A DNA stretch of 64,000 bases from assembly GCF_001458775.1 (NCBI RefSeq), contig NZ_CZPZ01000002.1, positions 1 to 64,000 of the forward strand. The letters run 5' to 3'. Below the pieces are notes generated by a model. The model was not told where the DNA came from, ran no database searches, and saw only the letters and a program-made list of their open reading frames with translations. How positions within the stretch are numbered: position 1 is the stretch's first letter; each line of letters begins with the position of its first letter. Origin of the DNA: Candidatus Nitrospira nitrificans (GTDB lineage: Bacteria; Nitrospirota; Nitrospiria; Nitrospirales; Nitrospiraceae). This document shows, piece after piece, positions 52,513 to 62,724 of the stretch. The position numbers and the translations under genes were made by a program.

Positions 52513-53897
52513 CTACGGCAGAACGTCAAACACCAACCGAACGGTTCCCTGCACCGCACTCAGTACCACAAACTTCTCGCCTGTCGCCTCGATTGGCGCA
52601 TGGGTCTGCTGCCCCGCAAGACGCCAGGTCCTCGGGATCTGCAGGGTCAAGCCGGTCAGCTGTTCGGATGCCCTCACCGACAAGATTTTCTGCGCTCTCC
52701 GAGTCTGAACATCTACCTCGACACGATTGCGCGCCGCCCACCAGGCGCCATATTGTCCGATGGACCCGAACCAGGCGACGTCCCGCACCGCCGCGACAAA
52801 CTCCTTTTCAAAAGTCATCTTGTGACCCACGATATTGGGATGGATCAAGACTACTACGCTTTCTCCGTACCGAGCGACTTTTGCCGCGACGGCGAGCGCC
52901 TCCGGCACCCGCGAGCCCATCTCGGGGAACTCTTCGTCCTCGATGGTGATGGGAAACTCAAAAACCTCGGATTCTGTCTCCACGTCACGATTCACCATGA
53001 GCTGATACGGAAGATGAGTCAACGAATTGTTAGCCGTCGAGGAGGAACTGTAGCGGTAGCCCGTCGCGGCAAGCGCTTGCGGCAGAGTCTTGGGATTCGA
53101 CAACTCTCCGGGTCGAAACGACAAGATGTTCGCCCCACCGGACAGCTGCTCAATTAGGTACTTGCTGACGCGCAGCTCGCCGAACACCGAACCGTTTGCC
53201 GCTTTGGTTCTGGTCTTCACATAGGGCTGATAGTCCGGAAAGCGTTCCGTCCCGGTTCCCAGCGGAAAATGGCTGAACACTTTGGAATGTGCCACCGTGT
53301 GACTGCCGAGCTCCATGCCCAACCGGTGCAGGGCCGCCATATTGATGCCTTGATCGTTCAGGAACACCTCGTCGTTAAAATCTTTGATGTATTTGGTTTG
53401 CACGAAGTAGGTTCCGACGATGCCTTGACTCTTTTCGAACTGTGCATACTGAACGGCGTTGGCCATGGACGTCTGCGCATCGATGTCGTGCGTCATGATC
53501 ACCGCTTCGTAGGATCGTCGAGTAATGGCCGCGCTGCCGTCCTCATACCGGGCCAACGGCGGCTCTTTTGTTTCGCTGTATGACCAGGCGGCAATCGGAC
53601 GCACGTTTTTCGCATGGTTGCCCGGTGGGAGAACCTGCTCGGCGGGATCGGTAAATTCTTCGAGCAGCGGCGCGCCGACGGCCAGCCGCAATTCGTAATG
53701 GTCGCGGCCATGGCGAACCTCCCGGAATCCGAATACCTCCTCCACGCCGTCGCCATAAATGTCGCTGGTGCCATCATCGGCGCGTCGGATGGCGCTACTA
53801 CCGGCCTGGTCCCGTTCCTGAGCGACAGCCAGTAAAGGAGCACACCGGAGCCGACGACAATCACCGCCGCCATGCTGGTTATTCCAACCCGCCGCAC
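52513..53897 (-). pseudogene. Polysaccharide deacetylase (NodB-like) with a 5' frameshift
   Basis: The body (frame ending at 52513) has NodB-type features: THDIDA as the metal-binding Asp motif and GSHTVAHS as the HxxxH motif, then SFRPGELSNP. The true N-terminus lies in another frame: GTG at 53897 follows a strong AGGAGG and encodes a membrane anchor (AAVIVVGSGVLLYWLSLRNG). That frame must join the body frame between about 53810 and 53770, which needs a shift equal to a one-base loss. Downstream of the shift the body frame (DDGTSDIYGDGVEEVFGFRE) is clearly protein-like. It is last of four co-oriented genes. It may be a pseudogene, a sequencing error, or start from an internal site. Confidence 0.7.
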
Positions 53898-53948
53898 TGC
53901 GCCTCCTGTTTGTGTTTTCTGCCGCTGAGTCCACCGCGGCGAAGATTC

Positions 53949-55049
53949 TCACCGGTTCGTGGAAACCGCGCGAATAGAGCCGACGGCTTCAGGAATCGTG
54001 TTCTGCAATTGGCGAGCGCGGAATTTCGCCAAGACGGGAGCCAGAATTTCTTGTGCCTCGGGAGTGAGCAAGGTCTCTTGCAATCGTTCAAGGGTGTTTT
54101 CCGTCATGGATTTCAAACTTGCCAGGGCTTCCCCTGCTCGATAACGTACCCACCATTGCTCATCATCGAATAGCGCAATGAGCCGCGCTTCATCTTCCTG
54201 TGTTCCCAGTTTGCCCAAGGCGGTGGCCGCTTGAACCCGAACGTACCAAGCTGGGTTTGAAAGATGTGCGCGGATCATGGGCAGATCGGTCGGGTCTCGA
54301 AATTCGCCGAATACGAACAAACATGCCGCGAGCACGTCATCCGACGGAGGGTGCTCGTGAAGGAAGTGCCGTAATGCAGGGAGTCCACGCGGACTTTTCG
54401 TCGTCGGTAGATGGCGAATCAACCGTGGGGCGACGACGGGATCCCCCTGTCTTGCCGCCTGGACCATCGTTTCCGAGGCAAGATCAGGCCCCGCCGTGCT
54501 CAGCATCGAGGCGATTTTGAGAGGGGACCAATCTTTTCGCTGGCCGATGAGGGGGACTAAGAGCGGGATTGCGGCTTGCGCATCGATAAGGAGTAAGGCC
54601 TGGGCTGCCTGGAACGCCAAGAAAGAATTCGAGTGTGCCAGAACCGCGCAGACTTCTTTCCAGACGGTCCGGTCTTGCAACCGGCCTAACGTCACGACCG
54701 CGATAATTTTGCGGTGCAACAGCCCTGAGCGCAAGAGGCCTCGCGCGACGCGATCGGCGTCGACGTGCCGAGCCATACGGATCAATTGCGTGGTTATCGC
54801 CTCGGACTTGGACTCGCTGTATTCGTTCCAGAGATAGAGAAAGATGATGTGCTGAGGAGGTGTGAGTGACGGCAATTCTTCGAGGGGGATCTCGAGGCAC
54901 CGCTCCAACAGCGGTTGCCATAGTTCCGTGACGCGTTGCCGTCGGCGCTCGTTCGCATGGCGACTCATTCGGAAGAAAAGGATGCCCGCCAAGAGGAGCA
55001 GGATCAGGCAACCGATGGAAAAGGAGGTCAGGTACCAGAGTTCGAGCAT
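53949..55049 (-). CDS. Membrane-anchored HEAT-repeat protein
   Basis: 366-residue protein. One N-terminal membrane span (about 9-30, FSIGCLILLLLAGILFF) is followed by a basic stretch and then an all-helical body. HEAT-like repeats are visible at about 100-340, for example WYVRVQAATALGKLGTQEDE and WWVRYRAGEALASLKSM. HEAT repeats serve as protein-binding scaffolds. It lies between the beta-barrel gene (57 bp upstream) and the deacetylase gene (51 bp downstream), so it probably belongs to the same exopolysaccharide system, perhaps as an inner-membrane adaptor. Confidence 0.85.
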   Translation of the reverse strand: MLELWYLTSFSIGCLILLLLAGILFFRMSRHANERRRQRVTELWQPLLERCLEIPLEELPSLTPPQHIIFLYLWNEYSESKSEAITTQLIRMARHVDADRVARGLLRSGLLHRKIIAVVTLGRLQDRTVWKEVCAVLAHSNSFLAFQAAQALLLIDAQAAIPLLVPLIGQRKDWSPLKIASMLSTAGPDLASETMVQAARQGDPVVAPRLIRHLPTTKSPRGLPALRHFLHEHPPSDDVLAACLFVFGEFRDPTDLPMIRAHLSNPAWYVRVQAATALGKLGTQEDEARLIALFDDEQWWVRYRAGEALASLKSMTENTLERLQETLLTPEAQEILAPVLAKFRARQLQNTIPEAVGSIRAVSTNR

Positions 55050-55106
55050 GGGAGCCGTTTAACCGAGAGGACGCGAAGGACAGTGCCGAAAAGACATCGC
55101 GCTCGT

Positions 55107-56936
55107 TTACCAGTGATAGATGACGCTGAAACTCCCGCCTTGCCGCACGTACAGAATGCCGCGGTCTTCGTAATATCCGGTGGCTTCCAGGGACAATCGG
55201 TCGCCGATCGGGAGCGTGATGCCTCCTTGGAGGGCATGGCTGCTTACCCGTGTCAAATCTTGAGTGGCAACGATGCGTTCTCCTGATGTTCCGAATGAGC
55301 CGGATGCAAAGAGTTGCAGACGATTCGTGGGGCGCCAGGTCAGTCGAGAGGAGAGGGTCAGCGCGCCGGTTTCCGGAACATAATACAATTTCTCCGTCAG
55401 CCATACGTTGAACGGAAGAAAGATGGTCAGGCCGGGTATCAGCAGATCGCTGTCCCCTGTTGTGTACGAGAGGTGCCGATAGCCTAACGAGACTTCCAGC
55501 GTTGAAAGAGCGGGGTGGGCGATCCCCAGCCCTTGCGTGAACTCTCCCGCGATCGAATAATTGGGTGAAAAATGAGGGTTGATCGTTCCTTGCGCGGCCA
55601 GATATCCCCACGCACGCCGCCACAAGGGGCTGTACAACTCGCCCGACAGCGGCGTGTCGTGGAAGCCGAACCTGGTGATCGGCTCGACCCTGGCGATCAG
55701 GGTGTAGGCGCCAAGAGCCTTGGCCGCTTCAAAGAGGATATTCCGCTCATCCGGAATGTTTCGCGAATAGGAAAAATGACCGTAGCCCACCTTGACATAG
55801 TCTCGGTACGGCAGACGAATGGTGGAATCCCGCAGGCCGAGCGGCGCTCGTGGAGAAGCTTCCATCGAGGCAATGACGGCTTTGACGCGTGCCGCACTCT
55901 CTCCATCCCCCGTCAACTGCGCCAATCGTGAATAGTGAGCCAGCGCTTCCTGCGTGGCGCCGCTCCAGAACAGGGTGTCGGCCAATCCTCGCAGCGCGTC
56001 TCTATTCTCCCCGTCTTGCCGGAGGACTGTCTCAAACAAGTGGATGGCGGCAGGAAACTGTTTCTGCCATGCGCGCACATGGGCTAATCCGAGTTGTACG
56101 TCGATATCGGTGGGATGACGCCTCAGGATATCTCGGTAGAGCGAGCCCGCCTGCTCCAATTGCCCGTCTCTGGCCAGCACGCGCGCGAGCGCGCCGCCTG
56201 TTTCATCGTCTTCCGGATGCTCCGCGAGAATCTGTCGATAGGCGGCGATGGCTGGTCCGTACTCGGCATTCCGCTCCCATGCCTGGGCTCGCGCGACCAT
56301 TTCGGCTCTTCCGCCAGAGACGGGCGGCGGGACGGTCGCCGAGGAACTCTGCTCTCGTTGAGCGATCGTGCTCCGAATCGACGCGATGCGCTCGGCAACG
56401 GTCACATCGTTCGAAAGAGCAGAGGCTTGTTCGTAGTAGTGGAGCGCTTCTTCCGAGTGTCCCTCCCACAACAATACGTCCGCCAGGCCTTGCAGCGCCT
56501 CGGGATGGCGGGAGTTTTCCCGCAGCACGCCCTCGTAGAGGGTTCGCGCTTCGTCCAGGTGTTTCTGCCACGATAACACCCGTGCGAGGGCGGTCCGTAT
56601 ATCGAGGTCGACCGGGTGCCGTCGAAGAATCTCTCGATATAAGTCCGCGGCTTCCGCATACGCGCCTTGCCATGACAACAGCCGAGCTAGGGTTGCTCGC
56701 GCGTCATCATTCTCCGGCTCGCGCCGGAGCACCTCTCGGTAGAGGGGGATCGCATCGGGATAACGCTGAGCGGATTCGAGGTGTTTCGCCTGTTCGAACA
56801 GCGCTCGCGTGGAAAGCGCGTCACTGTTCTGCGTCTGCGCGTTGCCGACTCCGCCAAGGGCGGACAGCGCGCAGCAGAACAACAGCGGAATGCGTGCGTT
56901 CAGGAATGGTCGTTCTAAGATGGATACAGCGCGCAC
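55107..56936 (-). CDS. TPR plus outer-membrane beta-barrel protein (YaiO/PgaA-like)
   Basis: 609-residue exported protein. The GTG at 56936 starts one base after the preceding stop. A signal peptide ends near GVGNA-QTQ. About eight TPR units in two groups (about 40-200 and 210-370) carry repeated YREILRRHP-type motifs. The C-terminal 240 residues alternate like beta strands and end SFSVIYHW, an outer-membrane barrel end. This layout matches YaiO-family proteins and, in outline, PgaA, the exporter of poly-GlcNAc. It is most likely the outer-membrane port for the polymer made by the neighbouring glycosyltransferase. Confidence 0.85.
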   Translation of the reverse strand: MRAVSILERPFLNARIPLLFCCALSALGGVGNAQTQNSDALSTRALFEQAKHLESAQRYPDAIPLYREVLRREPENDDARATLARLLSWQGAYAEAADLYREILRRHPVDLDIRTALARVLSWQKHLDEARTLYEGVLRENSRHPEALQGLADVLLWEGHSEEALHYYEQASALSNDVTVAERIASIRSTIAQREQSSSATVPPPVSGGRAEMVARAQAWERNAEYGPAIAAYRQILAEHPEDDETGGALARVLARDGQLEQAGSLYRDILRRHPTDIDVQLGLAHVRAWQKQFPAAIHLFETVLRQDGENRDALRGLADTLFWSGATQEALAHYSRLAQLTGDGESAARVKAVIASMEASPRAPLGLRDSTIRLPYRDYVKVGYGHFSYSRNIPDERNILFEAAKALGAYTLIARVEPITRFGFHDTPLSGELYSPLWRRAWGYLAAQGTINPHFSPNYSIAGEFTQGLGIAHPALSTLEVSLGYRHLSYTTGDSDLLIPGLTIFLPFNVWLTEKLYYVPETGALTLSSRLTWRPTNRLQLFASGSFGTSGERIVATQDLTRVSSHALQGGITLPIGDRLSLEATGYYEDRGILYVRQGGSFSVIYHW

Positions 56937-56937
56937 G

Positions 56938-58518
56938 TTATTCTTGCAACCCCAGATAGCCCGGTAGATCGTGGATCAACAGCCCGGAAAAGCTCGGCGA
57001 ATGGATTCGAGCGAACACGCGGCTGATCGCGTGACGGACGTCGCGTTGAGTGCGACCCGCAAAGGACAGGCGCTCGGGGAGCACGGTTGTGTCGTGATGG
57101 ATGCGAAATCCTATCCGGTCCTGCCTGTGCGCATCGGCAGCGGGTATGTGCCCCAATGTCAAAACCCTCCGCACGGGATCAAGCATCCCGTCTGCGAGGG
57201 CAGGATCGTCCTCGCGTTTCAAGATGACGTGCCGTTCCGGAAGGAGGCGCGTCGTTTCCATGGCAAGCCAGACCGGGATGCCTTGGAGCCCGCCGTAGCG
57301 CAGGGTGTCTTCGCTGATCGTCGTCAATTCTTCAACGTCTGTTCGATAGCTCATCACGGCGACCTCCTCGACCCGATCCATCACGGCAAATGCGAGCGGT
57401 CGGTTCCGATGAATTGTCGAGGCGAACCAGAACGGAATGACGACTGATAATCGACCACGACTGCCGAGGGCCGTTTTCACGCGCTCAATAGTCGTGAGGT
57501 AACGGTCGAGGATCGTGACATCATCGGGAAAACCATCCAGGAGGTAGGGCTCAATGTCCAACTGCATCCCGGGCAGACCGCTGTTGCCGACGAGCGTGAG
57601 CAGCCTGGTGAGCTTATCGGTCAGGATCGTCGGGGTATCGATCACGTCCGGGGCTCCGTCGATCGCAAACAGCTCGACACCCGCTGCCTTTGCCGAGACG
57701 AACAGGGCGGCATAGGCGGCCCACACCTGATCGGAGTCTCGCAAGTCAGGAATTTGGAGCAACAACCGCCGGCAGTGATGCCGCCGACAAGCGGAGAGCA
57801 TGCCGGCGGGGTCGCGTATCGCTGTTCGATAGTCCCAATGCCAAAAGCCCACGGAGGGGATCGGCGAAACGGCCGGCTCCCGATTCATCCAGGCGCATTC
57901 TTCCAGCACGACGTCCGCATTGTCCTCGACAAGCAGCCTCACCTGCGTGAGGCGTCGAAGATCGAGTTGCCGCGCAATCGGTGCGAGAGGGAGCTCGACA
58001 TCAAATTGGCCGGCGACGCGTCCGACCACCGCGCTGCTCTGCCGTTGATCGGCAGATTCGGCGACCAGCATGATCGTCAAGGGACTGGAGGTCCTTCCGC
58101 GCAGTCGGAGAGCCTGGAAGGACAATGCATCCAAACTGTTATTCGTGGTCCGGAGAGACCACGTAAACTCGCCGGGGGATGTCCCCTGGCGGACAAAGCG
58201 GATTCGGAGAGGAGGGGCCGTGCTTTCTTGTCGCGCCTGGCAGAAATCGACCGGGTGGCCGGCGTCGGGCGTCGCCGAAAGAGGCAGGCGCGTGTCGGAA
58301 GGCCGAGAGGAAGAAAGCACAAAAGGATTTGCTGGTTGTCGGCGGCGCACTATAATTTTTGGAACAGACTGGTCGCCGACATAGGTCAATTCGATTTCTT
58401 GGATTTCAGGCGGAGGCGTCCGTCCAGGAACAACGAGTTCCTGAGACATGGCCGAGGGCGACCATAGGCAGAGCGCAAGTCCCATCGTGATCGCCGCGGT
58501 CCAAGCGAAGAGGTTCAT
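56938..58518 (-). CDS. Secreted TIM-barrel-like protein
   Basis: 526-residue exported protein. The ATG at 58518 (MNLFAWTAAITMGLALCLWS) starts a signal peptide cut near AMS-QEL; a longer frame from TTG 58563 is less likely. The N-terminal half (to about 220) looks like a beta-rich domain. The second half has a hydrolase-like barrel segment GMQLDIEPYLLDGFPDDV and VMDRVEEVAVMSYRTD, recalling glycoside-hydrolase barrels such as the C-terminal domain of PgaB. No family could be named with certainty. It is the first gene of the four-gene strand and diverges from the glycosyltransferase. Confidence 0.75.
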   Translation of the reverse strand: MNLFAWTAAITMGLALCLWSPSAMSQELVVPGRTPPPEIQEIELTYVGDQSVPKIIVRRRQPANPFVLSSSRPSDTRLPLSATPDAGHPVDFCQARQESTAPPLRIRFVRQGTSPGEFTWSLRTTNNSLDALSFQALRLRGRTSSPLTIMLVAESADQRQSSAVVGRVAGQFDVELPLAPIARQLDLRRLTQVRLLVEDNADVVLEECAWMNREPAVSPIPSVGFWHWDYRTAIRDPAGMLSACRRHHCRRLLLQIPDLRDSDQVWAAYAALFVSAKAAGVELFAIDGAPDVIDTPTILTDKLTRLLTLVGNSGLPGMQLDIEPYLLDGFPDDVTILDRYLTTIERVKTALGSRGRLSVVIPFWFASTIHRNRPLAFAVMDRVEEVAVMSYRTDVEELTTISEDTLRYGGLQGIPVWLAMETTRLLPERHVILKREDDPALADGMLDPVRRVLTLGHIPAADAHRQDRIGFRIHHDTTVLPERLSFAGRTQRDVRHAISRVFARIHSPSFSGLLIHDLPGYLGLQE

Positions 58519-58529
58519 GCGGGGAAACG

Positions 58530-58542
58530 CCTGAAGTTCAGG
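58530..58542. promoter_or_regulatory. Palindrome in the 54-bp divergent spacer
   Basis: CCTGAA-G-TTCAGG is a perfect 6+1+6 palindrome, 12 bases from one start codon and 30 from the other. Its place between the divergent exopolysaccharide genes suggests an operator controlling both. The spacer is too short for two full promoters, so at least one must lie inside a coding region. Confidence 0.4.
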
Positions 58543-58572
58543 AACGAACCACGATGCATCCAAGCAGAACGC

Positions 58573-60000
58573 ATGATGCCTGAAACCATCTTTAACATTG
58601 TTCAGTCGGGGTTCTTGCTGTACTTAGCCGCCCTGACCGGGGGCTACTTGGCGCTCAATATCGTGTCAATCTTCTCCCTCCGGCAGTACTTCGAAGAGCG
58701 AATGGGCGAACGATTTCCAGGCGCATTTACCGGATATGAGCCGCAGATCAGCATCATTGTGCCAGCATACAACGAAGCGGCCACGGTCGTGAATTCTATT
58801 CGCTCTTTGTTGCAGCTGAATTATCCCGAGTATGAAATCATCGTGGTCAGTGACGGCTCGACCGACGACACCGTTGACGTCCTGCGGCAAGAGTTCGGAT
58901 TGAGGCCGTTTCCTGAAGCCTACGGCCACGATCTACTGACTCAGCCGGTGCGCGCCACGTATCATTCGTCGACCTACGGGAACGTCCGTGTCATCGATAA
59001 AGAGAATGGAGGGAAGGCGGATTCCCTCAATGCCGGAATCAATCTGTCCGTGTACCCATTATTTTGTTGTATCGATGCCGACTCCATCTTGGCGCAGGAC
59101 AGTTTGTATCGCGTGGTCCAGCCGTTCTTGCTCGAACCCCGTACCATCGCGGCGGGCGGCACCGTCCGTGTGGCCAATGGCTGTTTTGTGGAACATGGGT
59201 TCTTGAAGACGGTAGGCCTGCCGTCTAACTTTCTGGCGCTGTTGCAAACGGTCGAATATTTGCGCGCGTTCCTATCCGGGCGGCAGGGTTGGTCTCCGAT
59301 GAATGCGATGCTGATTATTTCCGGCGCCTTTGGATTATTTCGAAAAGAAGCTGTGCTGAAAGTCGGAGGGTATCGAACCAACACGATCGGCGAAGACATG
59401 GAATTGGTGGTGCGGTTGCATCACCATTACCGCCTGAATGGCCAGCCCTATCGCATTACCTATGTGCCGGATCCGGTCTGTTGGACCGAGGTGCCGGAGG
59501 ACGTTCGCACTCTCAGGAATCAGCGCATCCGCTGGCAGCGTGGCTTATGCGACAGTCTGGCGGGCCACTTCGAGTTGTGCTGTCACCGAAAGGGGGGTAC
59601 GGTCGGCTGGCTTGCCTTTCCGTTCATGGCGATATTTGAATGGGTCGAGCCTGTATTCCAGATGGTCGGGTATATCTTCCTGTTCGGCGGGTTGGCGCTG
59701 GGGGTCCTGTCGTTGCAAGTATGGATCGTCTATATGCTGAGTATCATTGGGCTCGGCATTATGCTCTCGTTAAGCGCCCTCCTCATGGAAGAAATGACGT
59801 TTCATCTGTATCAGCGTCCTTCGGAGTTCTGGAAATTGCTGTGCGTGTCCATCGTCGAAAATTTCGGATATCGGCAGTTGAATTCCTACTGGAAACTGAT
59901 CGGCCTCTGGCGATGGCTCCGCGGGACAAAAGCGGAGTGGGGCAATATGATTCGATCAGCCTCGTGGCAATCCTCGCAGATCCCGCCGCGAAACGGCTGA
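58573..60000 (+). CDS. Processive family-2 glycosyltransferase (PgaC/YaiP-like)
   Basis: 475-residue inner-membrane enzyme. An N-terminal span (about 8-34) precedes the GT-A domain with PAYNEAATV, VSDGSTDDT, GGKADSLNAG, DADS, GEDMEL and QRIRW, the complete set for a processive synthase. Three to four membrane spans follow at about 345-420. The motif set is that of poly-beta-1,6-GlcNAc synthase and related enzymes, but the sugar cannot be read from sequence. It diverges from the four-gene strand that encodes export and modification partners. ATG codons occur at 58573 and 58576. Confidence 0.88.
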   Translation: MMPETIFNIVQSGFLLYLAALTGGYLALNIVSIFSLRQYFEERMGERFPGAFTGYEPQISIIVPAYNEAATVVNSIRSLLQLNYPEYEIIVVSDGSTDDTVDVLRQEFGLRPFPEAYGHDLLTQPVRATYHSSTYGNVRVIDKENGGKADSLNAGINLSVYPLFCCIDADSILAQDSLYRVVQPFLLEPRTIAAGGTVRVANGCFVEHGFLKTVGLPSNFLALLQTVEYLRAFLSGRQGWSPMNAMLIISGAFGLFRKEAVLKVGGYRTNTIGEDMELVVRLHHHYRLNGQPYRITYVPDPVCWTEVPEDVRTLRNQRIRWQRGLCDSLAGHFELCCHRKGGTVGWLAFPFMAIFEWVEPVFQMVGYIFLFGGLALGVLSLQVWIVYMLSIIGLGIMLSLSALLMEEMTFHLYQRPSEFWKLLCVSIVENFGYRQLNSYWKLIGLWRWLRGTKAEWGNMIRSASWQSSQIPPRNG

Positions 60001-60153
60001 CCTGTTTGCGGAGGATTGAGCGCCGGCACAGCTGGGCGCAGAAGAGTGGCTGCCTCTTGGCCGACCACCCCTCTCCAGTTTTATCACCTGGTGGCCGATA
60101 ACGTAGGTGAAGAACCGGTCTGTGTTTGCGGACAACTTGGAGGAGCTTCCACC

Positions 60154-61011
60154 ATGCCATCGGCCAACGAATTGGTCCAGTCCTGCACCACGGTCTTCAC
60201 GTTGCCGGAAATCTACTTCCGTATTCGGAACGTGGTGGATGATCCCGCATCGACGATGGACGACCTTGCCGAAGTCCTGAAGCTGGATCCGGCCATCTCG
60301 GCCAGGCTTCTCCGCATCGTTAACAGCCCGCTCTATGGGTTTCCCAAGCAGATCGACACCGTCACACGCGCCGTCACGCTCCTCGGCACACAGGCTATTA
60401 ACGATCTCGTGACCGCGACGACCGTCGGACGGACCTTCTCCGGCATGCCGATTCAGCTCATGGACGTCTCTATGTTCTGGCGGAAAAGCGCGCTGTGCGC
60501 CTTGCTCGCCGGAAAGATCGCCAAATCCTGCGGTCTGAAAGATGGCGAGCGGTTTTTTATCGCGGGATTGTTGCGCGACATCGGCCACCTCGTGCTCTAC
60601 CAGACCATTCCCCGGCGAGTTCAGTCCGCGCTTATCGAAGCCGGCTACCTTGAAACCTCCTTGGCCGAGGTGGAACAGTCCAGTATCGGGTGCGACTTCG
60701 CGGAAGTGGGAGCCGAACTCATCCGGTCCTGGGGGATGCCCGCGCAGATCGAACAGGCCATTCGCTGTCAACTGAGCCCGAACGATGCCGGTGAATTCAT
60801 CATCCATGCGTCCGTCGTTCATCTGGCCGGTGTCGTCGTCGACTATGAAGAGCTCGAGCCGAGTCGGCGGCCTGCGGCATTGCCGTTCAGCCTCCATGCC
60901 GTTGCCGCCACGCGGTTTGTGCCGGCCAACCTCCCGGCACTGCTCGCGGATGCCCGCGCCCAGCTTCATGATACGCTGGCGCTTATCCAACCTCACGCCA
61001 TGGCCGCCTAA
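60154..61011 (+). CDS. HDOD-domain protein
   Basis: 285-residue single-domain HDOD protein of a signalling type found next to chemotaxis, biofilm and c-di-GMP genes. It has the typical DPAISARLLRIVNSPLYGFP and AVTLLGTQAINDLV. The HD phosphohydrolase pair is degenerate (LLRDIGHL, Arg in place of His), as expected for HDOD. The ATG at 60154 follows TTGGAGGAG and is preferred over an open frame from 60016. It lies 153 bp after the glycosyltransferase, in the same direction. Confidence 0.9.
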   Translation: MPSANELVQSCTTVFTLPEIYFRIRNVVDDPASTMDDLAEVLKLDPAISARLLRIVNSPLYGFPKQIDTVTRAVTLLGTQAINDLVTATTVGRTFSGMPIQLMDVSMFWRKSALCALLAGKIAKSCGLKDGERFFIAGLLRDIGHLVLYQTIPRRVQSALIEAGYLETSLAEVEQSSIGCDFAEVGAELIRSWGMPAQIEQAIRCQLSPNDAGEFIIHASVVHLAGVVVDYEELEPSRRPAALPFSLHAVAATRFVPANLPALLADARAQLHDTLALIQPHAMAA

Positions 61012-61179: not shown

Positions 61180-62724
61180 CTACAGGATGCCGGCCAGTCG
61201 ATTGAGACCCAGCGTCGTTTGGGCGAAAAACAGCTGGAACGCCTGGTAGTCTTGAGAAATCAGCGGCTGGTTGCTTGTCGCTCGATCGCAGTAGATGAGC
61301 CCAATCGGTTTCGCTCCCACCCGCAACGGCGCCACGATCGCCGACGTCGATTTCCAGACATCGAGGAAGTCCTGTTTCAGAGTCCCGGCCATCTGGTCTG
61401 AAAAGTTGGGAACCAGGAGTGGATCGACTCGCTTGAGGATCGTGAGAAAAAACCGGTGTTCCCGGCTGAGTGAGCCTGACAGGGACCGGAGGTAGGGCGC
61501 GGGAGGAGTCACGCCAAATACCAGTCTTCCGACAAGCAGGTCACTGTCGTTTTGGTTGAGAAGCGCCAGGCCGACACGGTCGAATCCGGCATCTCGATGG
61601 AGGGATTGTACGAATGTTCCGAGGAGGCCGTCGAGATCTTTTGCGGCTTGCAGCAAGTCTTGAAAGGCTTGGAGTGTTTCCAGCGGTTTGGTTCGAATGG
61701 GCGCAGCCTGTTTCTCGCCGGTCGGCGCTGTGACAGAAGGCGAGCGCGGGATCCATTCGGCGGGGTCCTGCTCCTTTGATGGTGACGTGGTTTCATCGGA
61801 GGAGTCAATTGCCAATCCCATTGAACGGATGAGTTGGCGCCCCCGATCCATGGCCTGAATCATCAAATCTGCAAACGGGCCCGAAGAGAAGCCGCAGCCA
61901 AGTTGGAGTGTTCGCTTGGCTTCCTCAATGGAAGGCTGTGGCGCGGAGCACATCAGGACTTCGACCAACCGGATGGAGCCCACCACGATACCGCGGTAGG
62001 TCTGGAACCCGCCTTGCCAACGTTCCCTCGGCAGCTCCTCCGGATGGCGAAAGAGCTCGATGATATCGTCCGGCAACTTCCACATCTGGGCCAGGGCTTG
62101 AGCCAAGGTCAGCCGTGGCACACCGATGAGGCGCGTCTCTTGGAGCACGCATTCCGACGGGCGCTTGGTTGTCTTGGCAATGGCCTGGAGCGCCAGAAAG
62201 AGATCCGGGTCCTGATAGGCAATGGCCAAGTCTCCGATCGAGTACAGCAGGGCTCCGGTGAACAATTGTCCGGGTTGTGGGTATCCAACGGCTGTTCCCA
62301 ATTCGCTGGCATAGGTTGCGGACAGGAGGGATTTGGCGATCAAGGAACGGAATTCCTGTTGCCGAACCGGCCAATGTTGCAGCTGTTCGACGAGATGGGC
62401 CGCGGCCACAAGGGACCGGACGGTGTCGAGCCCGAGCCAGCTGACGGCATGAGGGACCGCCACGATCGTCTGCTGTGGGCTGTAGGCGATGCTGTTCGCC
62501 ACCTGCAGCACTTTGCATGTCAGCCCATGGTCTCGGCTGATCACCCGGGCCAAAGCCTCGGCGTTGGATTGGGGGCCCATATGACTCAGGATTTGCTGAC
62601 AGGTTGATTGCAAGATCGGAAGGCAGCGGCTGGATTCCTCGAAGAGAAGTCCGAGCTTCTGATGGAGGCGAGAGCGGATTGAGTCGATAAGGGACGATTC
62701 CGTGCCCTCGCGTGATGAGGTCAT
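61180..62724 (-). CDS. HDOD-GAF signalling protein
   Basis: 514-residue cytoplasmic protein. An N-terminal HDOD domain (about 25-240) contains ISRDHGLTCKVLQVANSIAY and VPHAVSWLGLDTVRSLV; the HD residues are lost (YSIGDL). A linker of about 60 residues rich in Ser, Pro and Thr follows. A GAF-like domain (about 345-505) has a start LQAAKDLDGLLGTFVQSLHR and the end GLIYCDRATSNQPLISQDY. The ligand is unknown. It is convergent with the first HDOD gene; the two are probably related signalling components. Confidence 0.87.
   Translation of the reverse strand: MTSSREGTESSLIDSIRSRLHQKLGLLFEESSRCLPILQSTCQQILSHMGPQSNAEALARVISRDHGLTCKVLQVANSIAYSPQQTIVAVPHAVSWLGLDTVRSLVAAAHLVEQLQHWPVRQQEFRSLIAKSLLSATYASELGTAVGYPQPGQLFTGALLYSIGDLAIAYQDPDLFLALQAIAKTTKRPSECVLQETRLIGVPRLTLAQALAQMWKLPDDIIELFRHPEELPRERWQGGFQTYRGIVVGSIRLVEVLMCSAPQPSIEEAKRTLQLGCGFSSGPFADLMIQAMDRGRQLIRSMGLAIDSSDETTSPSKEQDPAEWIPRSPSVTAPTGEKQAAPIRTKPLETLQAFQDLLQAAKDLDGLLGTFVQSLHRDAGFDRVGLALLNQNDSDLLVGRLVFGVTPPAPYLRSLSGSLSREHRFFLTILKRVDPLLVPNFSDQMAGTLKQDFLDVWKSTSAIVAPLRVGAKPIGLIYCDRATSNQPLISQDYQAFQLFFAQTTLGLNRLAGIL

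Follow-up and report, generated by a model that had tools for sequence, protein, structure and literature searches.

The DNA analysed here, a 64,000-nt stretch (the window; positions 1–64,000 of contig NZ_CZPZ01000002.1) of Candidatus Nitrospira nitrificans, belongs to a Nitrospira-type genome assembly (4.1 Mb, 36 contigs) for which same-genus and named Nitrospira relatives were found, and it carries a locus that probably encodes a machine for synthase-dependent production and export of a polysaccharide. The gene for a processive family 2 glycosyltransferase (GT2), at 58573–60000 on the plus strand, diverges from tightly packed minus-strand genes for a secreted TIM-barrel protein, a YaiO-type barrel protein and a HEAT-repeat protein, beyond which lies a deacetylase stretch at 52513–53952. 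The divergent GT2 and TIM starts are 9 bp apart, and the minus-strand genes follow one another with spacings of 1 bp and 57 bp and a 4-bp overlap. The features are as follows.

58573–60000, plus strand: processive GT2 polysaccharide synthase, 475 amino acids (aa; PF13641/PF00535, motifs)
56938–58563, minus strand: secreted beta-sandwich/TIM-barrel protein (signal peptide, AlphaFold2 (AF2) model, conservation); natural start probably ATG 58518
55107–56936, minus strand: 609-aa candidate exporter with TPR repeats and a YaiO-type outer-membrane beta-barrel (TIGR04390, PF19413)
53949–55049, minus strand: HEAT-repeat protein with a single N-terminal membrane segment (PF13646, E 1.6e-29)
53772–53897, minus strand: the deacetylase's original GTG start (AGGAGG upstream) and signal anchor, no longer in frame with the remainder
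53506–53771, minus strand: what is left of the deacetylase alpha/beta/alpha domain, sharing its frame with the catalytic domain (alignment to the intact G266 copy, L098)
52513–53505, minus strand: deacetylase catalytic and C-terminal beta domains, open, without an in-frame signal anchor (PF01522, alignments)

This layout agrees with the initial annotation, which had placed a GT2 with a full motif set opposite four co-oriented genes. The GT2 carries DxD at residue 168, GED at 273 and QRIRW (QxxRW) at 317; its best equivalog model is PgaC/IcaA, although the score of 151.8 bits lies below the TIGR03937 cut-off of 422.3. Pfam returned only glycosyltransferase-type models over the 475 aa, with no MshEN or other additional domain for binding cyclic di-GMP (c-di-GMP). 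In one relative, genome G028 (L042 8266–11478), GT2 and TIM form a single open frame of 1070 aa, which we regard as only a possible natural fusion because the TIM part still begins like a signal peptide and, in that assembly, stops interrupt the deacetylase next to it.

The assignments of a TPR plus beta-barrel protein and of a membrane HEAT protein were also borne out. The former exceeded the cut-offs of both YaiO barrel models (TIGR04390, 72.1 versus 32 bits; PF19413, 38.6 versus 23.9 bits); its YaiO domain is the sole one in the genome, and against the PgaA model TIGR03939 it scored 65.4 bits, below the cut-off of 366.65. In the HEAT protein a single strong N-terminal membrane segment (residues 7–25) precedes arginines, and because positive charges follow the segment, the repeats are predicted to be cytoplasmic.

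The secreted TIM-barrel protein and the decayed deacetylase

The 56938 product matched no Pfam or NCBIfam model, and its description as TIM-barrel-like in the initial annotation was upheld by structure prediction. The AF2 model (17 relatives; predicted local distance difference test score (pLDDT) 82) comprises a beta-sandwich at residues 41–226 and a beta/alpha barrel at 235–541, the latter predicted as an eight-stranded TIM fold with pLDDT mostly above 80. The closest solved fold to the barrel is Cwp19 (Z 19.7, 242 residues aligned, 3.6 Å), followed by 4wiw (Z 18.8) and the C-terminal domain of PgaB, 4p7o (Z 18.0, 235 residues aligned, 3.7 Å). Invariant residues lie at the strand ends (D302, D336-x-E338-P-Y, M404-x-Y406-R-T and E436-T), and the D336-x-E338 pair, invariant in 17 homologues, is also kept in distant homologues from Devosia, Paenibacillus, Priestia and further families of Nitrospirota and is present in the solved Cellulomonas fimi protein 10yv.

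GH18 enzymes have a strand-4 motif that ends in D-x-E. Barrels of the GH18/Cwp19 type resemble the window protein in fold, in D-x-E after strand 4 and in M-x-Y on strand 6, but have YD where it has YR; the TIM protein itself had no Pfam GH18 (PF00704) match, and the remote homologue in L071 scored 26.7 against a cut-off of 29.6 (E 5e-6). The GH153 domain of PgaB, by contrast, has just one catalytic Asp (D474 in Bordetella), the adjacent acid of GH18 and GH20 being absent (PMC5933820), a feature from which the TIM protein departs in having D-x-E, with positions equated by strand order rather than by superposed coordinates. We infer that the TIM protein is PgaB-like in place and predicted fold and GH18-like in its likely active site.

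Two further observations concern this family. PDB entry 10yv, which was matched by the profile of the 56938–58563 product and is the sole solved relative of the TIM family, is titled 'Putative GH97 from Cellulomonas fimi'; its active-site motif reads LDVEPW, and the GH97 label may be wrong. Remote TIM-domain homologues from other Nitrospirota families form part of 715–795-aa proteins near GT2 and HlyD genes (L070 8710–11094, L071 8237–10546 and L072 8054–10198); the L070 protein also bears a TolC-like (OEP) domain, a TackOD1-GGDEF gene lies near in L070 and L072, and the three loci represent a second export layout for the TIM domain.

The NodB-type deacetylase that the initial annotation placed at 52513–53952 proved correct as to its catalytic domain (PF01522) but not as an intact gene. 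In intact relatives the deacetylase has about 633–660 residues, with a membrane anchor, an alpha/beta/alpha domain, an esterase domain containing the motifs THDVD, SHTIAHS, RPGEL and LIHPN, and a C-terminal beta domain. The window copy retains HDID, HTVAH, RPGELSNP and LIHPN in an open frame that starts at the overlap with the HEAT stop codon. Near 53771 it has lost about 385 bp, a size derived from start-to-junction distances in the alignment with the intact G266 copy (L098), and the anchor (GTG 53897, AGGAGG) thereby no longer shares a frame with the catalytic domain; a second deletion, of 204 bp near 53506, spans the boundary between the first domain and the esterase domain, taking the end of the one and the beginning of the other. 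The anchor resembles those of the G266 copy, which is whole, and of the copy in the close relative G085, which is interrupted by a transposase gene of IS type (L084 2555–3478). No deacetylase match was found in G094 or G122. Alignment with the G266 and IS-split G085 copies rules out an intact NodB/PgaB-N part in the window, and a sequencing error is an unlikely source of the frame shift because two deletions are involved. The deacetylase of this locus is probably non-functional; since other deacetylase-domain genes lie on contigs C1, C8 and C12 of the genome, total loss of deacetylation is not implied.

The intact relatives, and only these, have features of PelADA/Agd3-type deacetylases, namely three domains in one chain, MT1, HxxxH and the MT5 His; in the window copy most of the first domain and the in-frame anchor are gone. 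The three-domain order is common to Agd3 and PelADA (PMC13254593), and the model of an intact copy could be aligned to Agd3 for 397 residues, at Z 13.2. When solved structures were searched with the deacetylase profile, no deacetylase matched significantly; a GH42-type domain was the only hit.

Conservation of the locus and of the HEAT–GT2 pair

Co-occurrence was assessed in a sample of 147 genomes of the family, incomplete assemblies included. TIM was present in 55 of them, GT2 in 56 and HEAT in 54, and 45 had the deacetylase; TIM and GT2 occurred together in 50 genomes (Fisher 1e-26), TIM and HEAT in 52 and all three in 48, and neither TIM nor GT2 was present in 86. The lack of co-occurrence in relatives that would have spoken against the initial annotation was not seen. 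TIM and GT2 shared a contig in 48 genomes and lay less than 250 bp apart in 45 of these. In G251 and G381 the two are on separate contigs, HEAT accompanying GT2 and the deacetylase accompanying TIM. One Nitrospira lineage and the sister genus g12 have all five genes together, with GT2 facing TIM–YaiO–deacetylase and HEAT convergent; in the lineage of the window HEAT comes after YaiO. GT2, TIM, YaiO and HEAT make up the conserved core.

The link between deacetylase and TIM is one-sided: TIM accompanied the deacetylase in 44 of 45 genomes, and 11 of the 55 genomes with TIM had no deacetylase. Because TIM is often kept without the deacetylase and rarely the reverse, it probably needs no deacetylated chain. 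The hydrolase of PgaB cleaves deacetylated poly-beta-1,6-GlcNAc (PNAG; PMC5933820), and the one-sided link suggests, unlike PgaB, a hydrolase acting on the acetylated chain. The TIM gene is also damaged now and then: beside GT2 and YaiO, the copy in G067 has an internal stop (L079 7575–9260) and that in G003 a large internal deletion (L044 2505–2990).

The association of HEAT with GT2 extends well beyond the family. In all 12 plasmid-borne GT2 homologues at 31–46% identity, a HEAT gene lies immediately upstream; the hosts are Halosolutus, Salinirubellus, Haloarcula, Paenibacillus, Emticicia, Deinococcus radiophilus, Mesorhizobium, Erythrobacter, Planococcus, Devosia, Bacteroides finegoldii and Legionella, so that the pairs span haloarchaea, Bacillota, Bacteroidota, Deinococcota and Pseudomonadota. 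The HEAT calls were made by annotation in ten records and by sequence in Paenibacillus, and in Emticicia refer to a protein annotated as hypothetical whose HEAT match was weak and below the cut-off; the Mesorhizobium ciceri rows H8 and H9 are left out of the count. Among plasmid homologues below 30% identity, all of them long GT2 proteins, none of three had an upstream HEAT gene. In the plasmid records, response regulators often precede the pair. On the Devosia plasmid, TIM, response regulator, TPR, HEAT and GT2 genes are consecutive, and in Paenibacillus TIM, HEAT and GT2 lie within 10 kb. In Halosolutus, a sugar nucleotidyltransferase gene and glmS come after the pair, a hint of an amino sugar. 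Paenibacillus cellulosilyticus lacks an outer membrane; there, two large proteins without Pfam matches (733 and 1033 aa) are encoded between TIM and HEAT–GT2 (L091 12846–18159).

These data raise the possibility that GT2 and HEAT form an undescribed class of processive synthase across Bacteria and Archaea, in which an anchored cytoplasmic HEAT protein would replace control by PgaD and c-di-GMP, a new family of GH18-like hydrolases in the periplasm and a YaiO exporter would join where there is an outer membrane, and a PelADA/Agd3-like deacetylase would be optional; we put this broader proposal forward tentatively, as somewhat short of probable. Conservation of the pair in organisms ranging from haloarchaea to Legionella points to a class of synthases that has a control partner of its own, and whether GT2 needs HEAT becomes a question that can be tested.

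Relation to known polysaccharide systems and proposed mechanism

Compared with Pga (E. coli PgaABCD), the locus shows the division of labour that the initial annotation proposed: a processive GT2, a periplasmic TIM barrel similar in fold to the C-terminal domain of PgaB, a TPR plus beta-barrel exporter and, in many relatives, a deacetylase. It differs in its HEAT partner, in its other catalytic residues and in the architecture of its deacetylase. The locus could be a divergent Pga system that makes PNAG, with PgaB in two genes and PgaD lost or replaced, a reading favoured by that shared plan, by PgaC/IcaA as the best equivalog model of the GT2 and by the high rank of the PgaB C-terminal domain in the structural comparison. 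We consider it unlikely: the GT2 and exporter fall far below the PgaC (151.8 versus 422 bits) and PgaA (65 versus 367 bits) models, the whole genome has no match to GHL13 (PF14883, GH153) or PgaD (PF13994) where the E. coli controls matched, the TIM active site has D-x-E rather than the single Asp of GH153, and the deacetylase architecture is Agd3/PelADA-like. With these four tested defining features (GHL13, PgaD and the PgaC and PgaA models) lacking, the locus would function like Pga yet is not a member of it. The idea that PgaB is split into two genes finds no support, as the TIM protein has no GHL13 match and a GH18-like D-x-E and the intact deacetylase is of another type, whereas the suggestion that HEAT stands in for PgaD gains support from a genome without PgaD and from the adjacency of HEAT to this GT2 subfamily across domains of life.

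The domain order of the intact relatives' deacetylases is that of B. cereus PelADA (CE26) and fungal Agd3 (CE18), but the locus differs from Pel in its GT2 synthase and YaiO exporter, and no solved deacetylase matched its deacetylase significantly in sequence. The E. coli YaiO family shares the barrel domain, unlike which the window protein has many TPR repeats before the barrel and is linked to TIM and HEAT genes. E. coli NfrA/NfrB (PMC8669469) likewise combine an inner-membrane GT2, a TPR/beta-barrel outer-membrane protein and a periplasmic anchored protein; here there are a HEAT partner and a TIM-barrel protein, and the GT2 lacks an MshEN domain. In view of the GT2 and TPR/barrel pairing, and of membership of the YaiO family, the locus might instead be a polymer system of the NfrA/NfrB or YaiO/YaiP kind that awaits characterisation, with TIM as a non-catalytic binding chaperone. 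This, too, seems improbable, because Pfam finds no extra c-di-GMP-binding domain on the GT2, and because D336, E338, Y406 and E436 show no variation and D-x-E is still present in distant homologues, beyond the needs of a mere binding fold. That the whole locus is decaying, with no working machine in the organism, is very improbable: the deacetylase is partly deleted here, IS-split in G085 and not found in G094 or G122, but GT2 and HEAT are open and 80–90% identical in G085, G094 and G122, TIM and YaiO are open too, and 11 of the 55 TIM genomes keep TIM without a deacetylase.

We therefore regard as probable a machine for synthase-dependent polysaccharide production and export that combines a HEAT-partnered GT2, a GH18-like TIM protein and a YaiO exporter with a deacetylase that is broken here. 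From its family motifs, the inner-membrane GT2 would polymerise a nucleotide sugar, with an N-acetylhexosamine the likely donor moiety, and move the chain across the membrane. HEAT, held by its one-helix anchor with the repeats in the cytoplasm, may bind or switch the GT2 as a scaffold or control partner in the place of PgaD, as its association with GT2 would allow. In the periplasm, the TIM protein would bind and cut the chain through its GH18-like D-x-E pair, and the TPR/YaiO barrel would gather and export it. In most relatives, an anchored PelADA/Agd3-like deacetylase would modify the chain, adding free amines; in the window genome chain deacetylation would have been lost or taken over by one of the other deacetylases.

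Several points weigh against this reading. What the analysis establishes directly is gene content, linkage, predicted fold, conserved residues and decay of the deacetylase, from which the product and the enzyme activities are deduced. Barrel Z-scores of 16–20 cover many unrelated hydrolases, many of them at 16–17, so the fold by itself cannot fix the family of the TIM protein. The whole-deacetylase model has a mean pLDDT of 64, good in the first domain and partly poor in the esterase domain. G017 and G045 contain a TIM protein without adjacent GT2 or HEAT. The co-occurrence counts ignore shared ancestry, which the breadth of the HEAT–GT2 pair answers in part, for that pair only.

In the open-access literature we found no description of the full gene set, of YaiO with HEAT or a glycosyltransferase, or of HEAT with GT2, and no matrix polysaccharide machine for Nitrospira turned up. 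Nitrospira form dense clusters in biofilms and treatment sludge, and the locus is a concrete candidate for such a machine. It is a variant of synthase-dependent secretion, of which the broad GT2–HEAT association is the most interesting side.

Neighbouring genes

Two HDOD genes lie beside the GT2.

60016–61011, plus strand: HDOD-domain protein, not counted in the machine (PF08668, E 1.7e-56)
61180–62724, minus strand: HDOD plus GAF protein, not counted in the machine (PF08668, PF01590)

Their adjacency, reported in the initial annotation, is real in the window but confined to its subclade: HDOD genes adjoin GT2 only in L029, L084 and L088, and we rejected them as parts of the machine on the ground that they accompany the locus in one subclade only. 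Upstream (window 3784–42525) are rpoB/rpoC, a ribosomal protein block, rpoN, rapZ and a secretin gene, with the locus downstream of these.

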